In this document: piece after piece, positions 438 to 5,220 of the stretch | How positions within the stretch are numbered: the stretch's first letter is position 1 | How the letters are laid out: every line of letters begins with the position of its first letter | Source: Treponemataceae bacterium | GTDB taxonomy: Bacteria > Spirochaetota > Spirochaetia > Treponematales > Treponemataceae | DNA length: 5,220 nt | Assembly (NCBI GenBank): GCA_024402455.1 | Contig: JAKSTS010000088.1 | Coordinates: forward strand, 1 to 5,220 | Direction of reading: 5' to 3' | Translations under genes and position numbers: made by a program | The notes under the pieces: model-generated | Told to the model about the DNA's origin: nothing | Seen by the model: only the letters and a program-made list of their open reading frames with translations | Database searches by the model: none

Positions 438-980
438 TTAATTTGATATTATATACGATTGTATTTCCTGTTTGTTTTCCTGGTTATCAAGCCAATCTAG
501 AAAATCAATTATTTTTTCAGATTGTTCAGCAGAGAAATATTTTTTAATGCTGTTGATTTTTATTTCATGCACTTCCTGTTTATGAACATAATTTTGCCAG
601 GAAGATGAAAAAATATAATAAATGTTGTTTTCTAAATTACTTTCTTTCAAGAAATTCCATTCATTTGCATCAAGCCATATACCAGAACAATGGTCGCATT
701 TTTCTATATAAAATTCCAACCCGAAACCTGCTTTTCTTGCGATTAATACTTTTCCGCATTCAGGGCAATTCTTTAATGTATCATCATCTTTGCTATTAAA
801 AACTTTATTAAACTTTACTTTATCAATGATATCCATATTCAATGTTCTGTTTTCCAAGAACTTTTGATAATTGAAATACGGTATAAAATTTCCTTTACAT
901 TTTGGACATTCAAAAGCTTGTAAATCACCTTCCAAGTCTACAGAATTAAGCTCCTCAATTTTACACACAGGGCAATTCAT
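438..980 (-). CDS. Double zinc-ribbon (TFIIB-type) protein, 180 aa
   Basis: The protein contains four CxxC knuckles that form two zinc-binding pairs: C3/C6 with C25/C28 and C72/C75 with C95/C98. The second pair is followed by SGIWLDANEW, the typical 'GiWLDxxE' tail of the TFIIB-type zinc-ribbon family (Pfam zf-TFIIB). The C-terminal 80 residues are polar and probably helical, with no recognised domain. There is no signal peptide or membrane segment, so it is probably cytoplasmic. The family has no settled function, and nucleic acid or protein binding is only inferred. The open frame extends upstream to 1049, but I chose the ATG at 980: an AAGGAG site sits 5 bases before it, a strong promoter lies inside the extension (1012-1040), and the first zinc knuckle begins at residue 3. 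It is divergent from the lipoprotein gene and ends in TAA. No clear terminator follows. Confidence 0.85.
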   Translation of the reverse strand: MNCPVCKIEELNSVDLEGDLQAFECPKCKGNFIPYFNYQKFLENRTLNMDIIDKVKFNKVFNSKDDDTLKNCPECGKVLIARKAGFGLEFYIEKCDHCSGIWLDANEWNFLKESNLENNIYYIFSSSWQNYVHKQEVHEIKINSIKKYFSAEQSEKIIDFLDWLDNQENKQEIQSYIISN

Positions 981-985
981 AAAAA

Positions 986-992
986 TCTCCTT
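986..992 (-). promoter_or_regulatory. Shine-Dalgarno site that fixes the zinc-ribbon start
   Basis: Minus-strand AAGGAGA ends five bases before the ATG at 980-978. No comparable site precedes the upstream ATG at 1049, so it decides the start in favour of the 180-residue product. Confidence 0.8.
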
Positions 993-1011
993 ATTTACAT
1001 AGTTCATTAAA

Positions 1012-1040
1012 ATTATAAATACGCAACCTGAACTTGACAA
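1012..1040 (-). promoter_or_regulatory. Strong sigma70-type promoter of the zinc-ribbon gene
   Basis: On the minus strand, TTGTCA (1035-1040, five of six matches) is followed after exactly 17 bases by a perfect TATAAT (1012-1017). Transcription would start near 1005, giving a leader of about 25 bases that contains the AAGGAGA site. The -35 box lies in a near-palindrome (CTTGACAAG, 1033-1041) that also reads TTGACA on the plus strand. Confidence 0.75.
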
Positions 1041-1121
1041 GAGAGGCATTGCGTTTAAGCTAATTTTTCCAAACAGGTTTAATCTGATATATTTCAGCAG
1101 ACGTCAAAATTAAAACACATC

Positions 1122-1156: not shown

Positions 1157-2752
1157 ATGAAAAACTTTTTTAAGAATTTTACAAGAATCAGTTTGCTGGC
1201 TTTGTTTGCAGCTGTCTGCACAAGCTGCATTAAAAACACAAACGCAAACACTTGTATTATTGCAAACGGCACAGATGAACCTGTTTTAAACCCTGTAAAC
1301 ATAAAGACAAATGCAGACGAACGCATTTACAGAGCCATTTTTGAAGGGCTTGTTTCTTCAGACGCTGTTACAGGAGATGCCGTACCGGCCCTAGCCGAAA
1401 GCTGGCAATATTCAAAAAACTGCCGGAGCATCACCTTTAAGTTAAGACCGGCAAAATGGAGCGATGGAAAAACAATTACAGCACAGACCGTTGCTGATTC
1501 ATGGTTTTATATAATGGACAACTGCAAAAACCAGGAAAAGCTCCACCTTTTAGCAGAAATGATTTCTGGTGCACAAGCTTATATCAATAAAAAAATTACA
1601 AGAGAAGATGTCGGATTAAAAGTTTTAGACGACAGAACACTACGCATTGAATTTTCTTCACCAAAAGCAAACGCAGTTCAGTTAATGTACAACAGCGCAT
1701 TTACAGTGCTGCCAATGCATATCATTAAAGACAAACCTGATTCATGGGCAACAGCATCAAATATTGTTACAAACGGACCATTTAAAGTGCACAGTCTTGC
1801 TTCTGACGGCACATTGACACTGCTTGCGAACAATAAATACTGGAATAAAAATGCTGTTTCACTTTCGAGAATCGTCTTTCTAAAAAAAGGCGCTTCAAAC
1901 GAAACTTTCAAAGATTTTAATAATGGAAAAATTTCATGGATTCCAGATATTCCTTTTGAAAAAATTGAAACAGTAAAAGATAATGCATATTTTCTGAGCT
2001 CTCCAAAAGCATGTGTTCATTATTATTACTTGAACGTAAACCACAAACTTTTATGCAATCCAAAAGTACGGCAGGCATTCAGTCTTGCAATTGACCGGAC
2101 TGCCCTTGTAGAAAAAATTCTTGAAGGAAACGGAGAACCAGCAGCTGCTATTGTTCCGTCAAGAACAGGCTGGAAACTTGTACAGACACCAGAATATGAT
2201 GTTGCAAAAGCAAAGCAGCTTTTAAAAGAGAGCGATTTTGCCAAAAACAACACAGATGAAATAATTCTTGCTTATAATGAAGAAAATGAGCTTTACAAAC
2301 GGACAGCTTTATTTATTGCAGATGAACTTAAAAAAAATCTTGGTGTAAATATTACACTGCAGTCTTTAAGCTGGAACGATTTTGTAAATAAACGCAGGGC
2401 AAACGGTTTTGACATGGCCCGTGCAGGCTGGCAAACAGCATCAAACGATCCAACAAGTTTTTTGCTGCAATTTGTTTCAACAGACAAAGAAAACTGCGGA
2501 CGATATAACAACCCGATTTTTGACGCACTTCTGCGCACCGCAAACCGTTCACTTGTAAATGCAGACCGTCTTGCAGTCCTGCGGCAGGCAGAAACAATTG
2601 CAGTTGTTGAAGACACGGCTGTTCTTCCTTTATATTTTGAAAAATCATATCAGTTGATTAATACTTCAATATGGCTTGGCTGGCATGAAAATCCTGCGGA
2701 TATTCATACATATACAAGCATAAAATTAAAGGATATTGAATTTTCAAAATAA
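1157..2752 (+). CDS. OppA-like peptide ABC transporter substrate-binding lipoprotein
   Basis: This 531-residue protein is an extracytoplasmic solute-binding protein of family 5 (SBP_bac_5), which captures oligopeptides and hands them to an ABC permease. A basic N-terminus and hydrophobic core (residues 1-20) lead to CTSC, so lipidation at C24 is likely. This lipobox is relaxed compared with the usual L-A-G-C. Family hallmarks in order are 'YRAIFEGL' (58-65), 'PALAESW' (77-83) with 'FKLRPAKWSDG' (94-104), 'NGPFK' (206-210), 'VRQAFSLAIDR' (304-314), the 'GRYNNPIFDALL' stretch (448-459), 'VLPLYF' (489-494) and a 'W-NPADIH' tail (509-517). The length is normal for the family. The start is fixed by the signal peptide, yet there is no ribosome binding site. 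No permease or ATPase gene is next to it, so it is an orphan binding protein that must borrow a transporter encoded elsewhere. The precise ligand is unknown. Confidence 0.92.
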   Translation: MKNFFKNFTRISLLALFAAVCTSCIKNTNANTCIIANGTDEPVLNPVNIKTNADERIYRAIFEGLVSSDAVTGDAVPALAESWQYSKNCRSITFKLRPAKWSDGKTITAQTVADSWFYIMDNCKNQEKLHLLAEMISGAQAYINKKITREDVGLKVLDDRTLRIEFSSPKANAVQLMYNSAFTVLPMHIIKDKPDSWATASNIVTNGPFKVHSLASDGTLTLLANNKYWNKNAVSLSRIVFLKKGASNETFKDFNNGKISWIPDIPFEKIETVKDNAYFLSSPKACVHYYYLNVNHKLLCNPKVRQAFSLAIDRTALVEKILEGNGEPAAAIVPSRTGWKLVQTPEYDVAKAKQLLKESDFAKNNTDEIILAYNEENELYKRTALFIADELKKNLGVNITLQSLSWNDFVNKRRANGFDMARAGWQTASNDPTSFLLQFVSTDKENCGRYNNPIFDALLRTANRSLVNADRLAVLRQAETIAVVEDTAVLPLYFEKSYQLINTSIWLGWHENPADIHTYTSIKLKDIEFSK

Positions 2753-3184: not shown

Positions 3185-4051
3185 TTAACACAACGCAAAA
3201 GGATTTTTCTTTAAACCGGCAAAAACACCATCATTTGCTCCAAATGGGACAACCGAATATTGTCCGAAAGAAGGAGCAATAAGAAGTTTCTGATCAAGAC
3301 AATGCATAAAAAAGTCCTTGTACTGCGATTCTGACACTTTGCAGCACAAATACGGTCCTACCCTGTTCCAATAAGGAGTACAAAACTTATCAAACACAGC
3401 CCAGTCTTCTGCTGCACGCTTTGGAATTTCAAGGCGCAAATCGTAAATTGCACGGCAAAAAGCTTCGCATAAAGGTGCAGGAATTCCGTCAGAGGCAGGC
3501 ACTTTTGCATGCAGTTCAGCATTACGAAACGCAAGAAGTGTTACAGGACGCCAGCTGAAAGGCAGCACAATTTCAACACAGTCTGCATTTTGCAGCAAAT
3601 TTTTCCGCTCTTTTAACGATTCATCTGTATAAAATGGTGCATCTTTCTTGATTTTGCTGTGCGGCATCGCTTTTAAATCAAAACCATAATCAACCCACGG
3701 AAGATAAAGAGGTGCTGCACCTTTTAAACCGGCTGAACACAAAGCATCTGTGACTTTTGCAGAATCTGTATAAAATGCAAAAAAAGCAAAACCGCTGCAT
3801 AAAGACGATAGCGCTCGTTTCAGATTTGCAGGCAGTGCAGAACTGCAAAAACCTGTAAAACCGCGGTCAATGCTGTTTTTAAAATGCATGCGTGCAGTTC
3901 CAGCGCTCCAGCCCAAAACAGCACGACCGCCGTCAAGCCACAAATCTGTTATGCGCTCGCCGCTTTGTGTGTAGAGAAAACAGCCACGGGCACGTTTTAT
4001 CGTGCCGTAGCGTTTAGTTATTTCTTCAAGAAAATCAAATGATTCTGTCAT
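3185..4051 (-). CDS. Degenerate aminotransferase-like protein, translationally coupled to gatB
   Basis: I do not recognise a named family for this 288-residue protein. Its N-terminus (RARGCFLYTQSGERITDLWL, residues 20-39, then GGRAVLGW, 41-48) resembles the opening of fold-type I, class III aminotransferases ('G..lyD.dG..yiDl..g.g...lG'). Its end (LDQKLLIAPSFGQYSVVPFG, 252-271) resembles their C-terminal small domain. Class III enzymes usually exceed 400 residues. Here the central PLP-binding domain seems to have shrunk, and I see no convincing catalytic lysine motif, so an active transaminase is doubtful. The start ATG shares one base with the gatB stop (TAATG), and no good Shine-Dalgarno sequence precedes it, which points to coupled translation and one operon with gatB. 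It is cysteine-rich (about ten residues), with no signal peptide. The frame is clean and the stop is TAA, so the gene appears functional. Confidence 0.8.
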   Translation of the reverse strand: MTESFDFLEEITKRYGTIKRARGCFLYTQSGERITDLWLDGGRAVLGWSAGTARMHFKNSIDRGFTGFCSSALPANLKRALSSLCSGFAFFAFYTDSAKVTDALCSAGLKGAAPLYLPWVDYGFDLKAMPHSKIKKDAPFYTDESLKERKNLLQNADCVEIVLPFSWRPVTLLAFRNAELHAKVPASDGIPAPLCEAFCRAIYDLRLEIPKRAAEDWAVFDKFCTPYWNRVGPYLCCKVSESQYKDFFMHCLDQKLLIAPSFGQYSVVPFGANDGVFAGLKKNPFALC

Positions 4052-5220
4052 TAAAGTTTTTTGAGCTCTTCATTCAAAAGTTTTGTAGCTGCAGCTGGTG
4101 TTGCCTTGCCCTTAGACTTTTTCATAACCTGACCCATAAGCCATCCGACAACATTTGTTTTTCCGGCTTTTAAATCTGCAATTGCTTTTGGATTTTCTGC
4201 AATAACTTCGCGGACGAAAGCTGCAATTTCATCAACGTTTGTTGTAGCAGCAAGACCTTTTTCTTCTACAATAACAGATGGCATTTTTGCAGTTGCAACA
4301 ACTTCTGCAAAAACATCTTTTGCCTGCTTAGAAGTAATCGTTCCAGCACAAACAATGTTTACCAGTTCTGCAATATGATCTGGCTTTATTGCAATTTCTG
4401 TAATTTTCTGCTCTTTTTCTTTAAGAACAGCAAGAAGCTCTGCAAGAATCCAGTTTGCAGCTTTTTTTGGATCTTTTGATTTTTTGGCTGCTTCTTCAAA
4501 CCAAAGAGCAAGATCTCTTGATGATGTCAAAGTCTGAACATCAAAATCAGAAAGACCATATTCTTTCTTTAAGCGCTGGCGTTTTGCTTCAGGCAATTCG
4601 CCGACCTTTTGACGGGCTTCTTCAACAAGAGCACGAGAAACTGTAAAAGGTTTAATATCTGGTTCTGTTGTAAAACGATAATCAACAAACGAATTTTTTG
4701 TACGCTGAATTACGGTTTCGCCTTTTGCTTCGTCCCAACCCATTGTGCGTTTAAAACCGACAACAAATTCCTGGCGGTCTGTATCAAATTCTTCAAGCTG
4801 ACGCTTAACTTCATATGAACATGCATCACGAATAGAACGGAATGAGTTCAAGTTCTTGATTTCAGAAATCGGAGTACGGAATTCTTTGCCGTTTTCCCAA
4901 ATCTTCAAGTTGATATTTGCGTCACAGCGCATGTTTCCTTCTTCAAGGTTGCCTTCTGTAACATTTACATAACGCAAAATTTCCTGAACAGTCTGCATAA
5001 AAAGCGCAGCTTCTTCAGGAGTGTTCATGTCCGGACGTGTAACAATTTCAATAAGCGGTGTGCCGCTTCGGTTATAGTCAATGTAACTGTAAGCGCCTTC
5101 AAGGTGCAGGCTCTTGCCTACGTCTTCCTCAAGGTGAACGCGTTCAATGCGAACACGTTCGTAACCGCCATTTTCCCGCAGGTCGACCTAACCCTCTGTA
5201 CAAAGAGGCACCGCATATTG
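4051..5220 (-). CDS. gatB: Aspartyl/glutamyl-tRNA amidotransferase subunit B, 5' end outside window, with in-frame TAG
   Basis: GatB is the tRNA-binding subunit of the cytoplasmic GatCAB complex, which converts Glu-tRNA(Gln), and in many bacteria Asp-tRNA(Asn), to the amidated form. The visible part covers 389 codons before the TAA, from roughly residue 90 of a protein usually about 480 long. Recognisable blocks are GGYERVRIERVHLEEDVGKS, the family signature IDYNRSGTPLIEIVTRPD (about 5029-5082), 'EEGNMRCDANINL' (about 4905-4941), 'EIKNLNSFRS', and a C-terminal YqeY-type tRNA-binding domain ending in 'GWLMGQVMKKSKGKATP'. The frame is interrupted once, by TAG at 5188-5190, between QYAVPLCTEG and VDLREN. 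Both sides read as good GatB. No ATG, GTG or TTG follows until the ATG at 5028, which lies inside the conserved core and is not a believable start. The aminotransferase-like gene overlaps its stop codon. Confidence 0.93.
5188..5190 (-). other. In-frame amber codon inside gatB
   Basis: The minus-strand codon is TAG, the eleventh complete codon from the right edge. It falls between CTEG and VDLR, where B. subtilis GatB (recalled from memory) has tryptophan (NGW-IEI). One G-to-A change would turn TGG into TAG. No other stop or frameshift interrupts the remaining 378 codons, so the lesion is single. Sequencing error, recent nonsense mutation, suppression and recoding all remain possible. Confidence 0.85.

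Follow-up and report, generated by a model that had tools for sequence, protein, structure and literature searches.

A TAG codon inside a spirochaete gatB fragment is probably a contig-edge artifact and not evidence of a new genetic code

RESULTS

Gene content of the window and the gatB reading frame

The window is the whole stretch of DNA that was analyzed, 5,220 nucleotides of contig JAKSTS010000088.1 (Treponemataceae bacterium, assembly GCA_024402455.1). It carries genes for a zinc-ribbon protein, a family 5 solute-binding protein, a rubredoxin, an unknown protein of 288 residues, and GatB, in the same order as in genome G044, and no tRNA was found in it by ARAGORN. The named records for five of the six compared loci are metagenome-assembled spirochaetes of rumen, gut, or similar origin, including Treponema. 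A search of the genus covered eight genomes, the best of which was 92% identical in protein, and thus none appears to belong to the same species. Identity to the G044 orthologs contrasted sharply between neighboring genes: 94.5% for the zinc-ribbon protein (over residues 22-203) versus 69% for the solute-binding protein and 64% for the 288-residue protein.

The gatB gene occupies the minus strand from 5220 to 4051. Its visible frame reads QYAVPLCTEG*VDLRENGGYERV... and then closes with TAA, with a single internal stop, a TAG at 5190-5188 that forms the 31st to 33rd bases counted from the right end of the window. This TAG is the sole in-frame stop among the 1,464 codons of the five genes. The 378 residues that follow it belong to GatB, subunit B of the Asp-tRNA(Asn)/Glu-tRNA(Gln) amidotransferase (TIGR00133; PF02934, PF02637); they score 386.9 bits against a curated TIGR00133 cutoff of 314.8, and they are 92% identical to the proteins of four relatives' genomes and 88% and 86% identical to those of two more. 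Unlike known GatB proteins, the window copy has an in-frame TAG and four residues that were unseen in the best 120 of 6,503 homologs, and owing to the TAG it lacks the uninterrupted frame that GatB requires. The break in the frame is probably spurious. The ends of all five genes visible in the window are TAA.

A sequence-only reading of this DNA had described the internal stop, the GatB sequence after it, and the five TAA ends, all of which were confirmed here. It had also stated that the frame has no other lesion and that conserved GatB sequence lies on both sides of the TAG, and had listed mutation of a Trp codon as one option; alignment of the window with its homologs did not confirm the first two points and did not support the third. 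Coordinates of the features are given in Table 1.

Table 1. Features of the window, with codons numbered from the first visible codon of gatB; homolog counts refer to the best 120 of 6,503
Feature	Position	Strand	Evidence
Zinc-ribbon protein gene	438-1049		
Solute-binding protein gene	1157-2752		
288-residue protein gene	3185-4051		
gatB, 5' part cut by the right window end; 390 codons plus stops visible	4051..5220	-	3' TAA
Last 84 bases (visible codons 1-28), enriched in changes that only the window shows; considered unreliable or foreign	5137..5220	-	Alignments
Codon 3, Ala; Asp in 120/120 homologs	5212..5214	-	Alignment
In-frame TAG, visible codon 11; Tyr in six closest relatives	5188..5190	-	Reading frame and alignment
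Codon 15, Arg; Pro in 118/120 homologs, Arg in none	5176..5178	-	Alignment
Codon 21, Glu; Arg or Lys in 119/120 homologs	5158..5160	-	Alignment
Codon 28, Val; Ile in 120/120 homologs	5137..5139	-	Alignment

Residues found at the position of the TAG

The column that holds the TAG was occupied by Tyr in the six closest relatives (five relatives and G044), and in the best 120 of 6,503 homologs it was occupied by His (57), Tyr (51), Phe (11), or Trp (1). Since 119 of these 120 homologs carry Tyr, His, or Phe, the TGG-to-TAG mutation that had been proposed as the origin of the stop finds little support, and Trp was rejected as the original codon. All six full-length gatB genes listed for the genus lacked an internal stop. 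The search of the family yielded a match in 139 of 145 genomes, and among the matches listed every one with at least 52% identity was likewise free of internal stops.

Unusual changes cluster at the right end of the window

Alignment with the best 120 of 6,503 homologs (counting only columns that held at least 100 residues) placed a state unseen in the homologs at 6 of 389 columns, namely codons 3, 11 (the TAG), 15, 21, 28, and 307. Five of these six, including the TAG, fell in codons 1 to 28, which correspond to the last 84 bases, and the other 361 codons held one such residue (binomial p = 1.1e-5, for a boundary chosen post hoc). The stop is therefore accompanied by four other unseen residues within 28 codons of the window end, at codons 3, 15, 21, and 28. 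When the same count was made over codons 1 to 28 for each of the best 120 of 6,503 homologs, 107 had no unseen residue, 9 had one, 2 had two, 1 had three, and 1 had four.

Comparisons with closer relatives gave a similar result. Against five relatives, the window had a unique residue at 10 of the 311 columns on which these agreed, and 5 of the 10 were among the first 16 of those columns (p = 4e-5). At the nucleotide level, bases private to the window with respect to six relatives made up 13 of the 84 at the end versus 36 of 1,086 elsewhere (Fisher p = 1.7e-5), and each of the six relatives, when taken as the focal sequence, had 0 to 3 private bases in the 84-base stretch. The p values are guides only because the boundaries of the stretch were picked after inspection of the data. 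At the left end of the window, 16 of 16 residues matched G044 and 2 of 48 bases differed (counted by eye), with no excess of changes comparable to that at the right end. The stop, the cluster of changes, and the confinement of the cluster to the right end are thus directly observed, and an excess of implausible changes confined to one end is the pattern expected of an artifact.

The private changes in the cluster were of mixed kind. Seven of the 13 altered the protein, versus 11 of 36 elsewhere, a difference that was not significant (p = 0.18). The remaining six were silent, and random miscalls alone therefore fit the cluster imperfectly. Private bases that copied a neighboring base accounted for 5 of 11 in the last 66 bases versus 9 of 39 elsewhere (bare counts, with G044 left out). 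Such copying is expected of phasing errors and is only suggestive here; a literature search on this signature returned no paper.

Probable requirement for GatCAB and a fused GatB-like paralog

None of seven relatives reached the cutoff of the GlnRS profile, and six had weak matches to it. Intact GatCAB should therefore be needed in these bacteria, which makes reasonable the earlier point that the enzyme is essential where it is the only source of Gln-tRNA(Gln).

A second GatB-like gene was present in seven of the eight genus genomes, as an open frame spanning 748-807 codons that is 26-32% identical to GatB (L149:12108-14513 on contig C10 of G044, and loci L096-L102), and it was also among the matches listed for many more genomes of the family. 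In the one such gene that was scanned, GatB_N and GatB_Yqey domains are joined to an asparaginase domain, and the product falls below the NCBIfam cutoffs of GatB, GatD, and GatE. Judging from its domains, it resembles a bacterial GatE-GatD-like fusion in one chain, a subject on which a literature search found nothing relevant. In genome G070, of the same genus, the fused gene was found without an ordinary gatB, and several genomes of the family had a weak match only; these genomes may be incomplete. One paralog of the fused type (G008:C21:44096-45166, 27% identical to the query, open frame of 609 codons) had one TAG inside the match.

The main rival to an artifact, plausible but rather unlikely, is a genuine nonsense mutation carried by a single strain or cell lineage. 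The window would then show a broken copy of gatB or the edge of a decaying duplicate, the unusual neighboring residues would reflect relaxed constraint or local divergence, and the cell would rely on another copy of gatB, or else the mutation would be lethal and few cells of the population would carry it. Both silent and protein-changing private differences are more frequent in the last 84 bases (13 in all, 7 of them protein-changing), as local divergence would produce, and six relatives in the genus have the putative GatE-GatD-like fused gene in addition to gatB. Against such a mutation, a single residue absent from the best 120 of 6,503 homologs, and no other stop, turns up in the remaining 361 codons, so that constraint seems relaxed at the window end only. 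The failure of all seven relatives to reach the GlnRS cutoff, with the resulting need for intact GatCAB, and the uninterrupted frames of the six full-length gatB genes listed for the genus also argue against it.

UAG serves as a terminator in the closest genomes

UAG might instead be read as an amino acid in the window's species, either through lineage-level recoding or through a suppressor tRNA, as the sequence-only reading had considered. A conserved gene does contain an in-frame TAG, and no gene in the window is seen to end in TAG. The closest genomes oppose this explanation, which is very unlikely. RF1 exceeded its curated cutoff in seven of eight relatives (four of five and three of three), with only a fragment or fragments in G002; prfA is thus retained in at least seven of these relatives, which are not the window's own species. 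Open reading frames (ORFs) of at least 200 codons ended in TAG in 29 of 157 cases in the sampled contigs of G044 and in 15 of 72 in G001, and in single loci TAG ended 1 of 7 ORFs in G003, 0 of 6 in G004, and 0 of 6 in G005. These counts, together with RF1, answer for the relatives the earlier suggestion to examine prfA and TAG-ended genes, and they speak against recoding. Where roughly one stop in five is TAG, it is unremarkable that all five gene ends visible in the window are TAA.

Among 35 TAG-ended ORFs of at least 150 codons in G044, 15 had a homolog that reached the C terminus; in all 15 a homolog stopped no more than five codons away from the TAG, and for 12 of the 15 some homolog used another stop codon. 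The window's own genes give two such pairs: its solute-binding protein gene ends in TAA where the G044 ortholog ends in TAG at the same residue, and its rubredoxin gene ends in TAA where the L004 ortholog ends in TAG at the same residue. Within the window, one TAG occurs in 1,464 codons alongside 48 Tyr codons. The window therefore does not show the frequent in-frame UAG, nor its relatives the loss of UAG as a terminator, that recoding would bring.

Decoding machinery for UAG was also sought. No CUA anticodon occurred among the tRNAs found by ARAGORN in G044 (35 loci) and G001 (32 loci), at loci chosen around RF00005 matches; these inventories are incomplete because they lack some ordinary tRNAs. 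PylS exceeded the TIGR02367 cutoff in none of eight relatives, with weak matches below the cutoff in six. On the combined evidence of RF1, TAG-ended ORFs and their orthologs, PylS, and the tRNAs found in the incomplete inventories, recoding was rejected for the nearest genomes. A UAG-reading tRNA private to the window's species and absent from its nearest relatives, so that GatB would be made by read-through of its own message, is scarcely credible.

DISCUSSION

Because the TAG stands amid other implausible changes in a short stretch at the end of the window, a sequencing or assembly error is the most likely explanation, and we hold with reasonable confidence that the TAG is a contig-edge artifact, from miscalls or a bad join, and not a sign of a new genetic code. 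We infer this technical cause for the TAG and the cluster together. Four explanations had been offered earlier. The evidence favors the first of them, an error close to the edge of the contig, since the stop belongs to a group of changes not seen in its homologs that is restricted to the final 84 bases; mutation from TGG is unsupported, and recoding and suppression are opposed by the closest genomes.

The window would be a fragment, and probably the whole, of a short metagenomic contig from an uncultured gut spirochaete that resembles treponemes and has an ordinary gatB. We take the window end to be the contig end because of the odd length of the window and because genes are cut at both ends. 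Roughly the last 84 bases would be untrustworthy, either through miscalls in thinly covered read ends or because a variant or foreign read was wrongly joined on, and the TAG would be one of several spurious changes in them. In the living cell, a sense codon would presumably occupy the site of the TAG and ordinary GatB would be made. The data agree about equally well with plain miscalls, with the joining of a divergent read, and with genuine local divergence.

Errors and mis-joins at the ends of metagenomic contigs are known, and the window resembles them in that its implausible changes lie within 84 bases of one end only. One paper that deals with contig ends (PMC7953547) concerns the extension of viral contigs, a different case from ours, and the probable artifact in the window is inferred from comparison of sequences.

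Reassignment of UAG is itself known, for example as code 15 in gut phages (PMC9523058). As in that reassignment, a conserved gene of the window holds a TAG in its reading frame. Unlike in the phages, the gene is chromosomal, the genomes nearest to the window have RF1 and TAG terminators, and no CUA tRNA was among those found in the incomplete inventories of its relatives. In-frame stops in yeast pseudogenes have led to false reassignments, according to PMC8629427. When an in-frame stop lies roughly one read length or less from the end of a sequence, next to residues unseen in the family, it is likewise poor evidence for recoding, and caution is advised in interpreting it. Genuine decoding of UAG in gatB, which the nearest genomes speak against, would be a rare instance of recoding in bacteria, one that acts back on tRNA charging.
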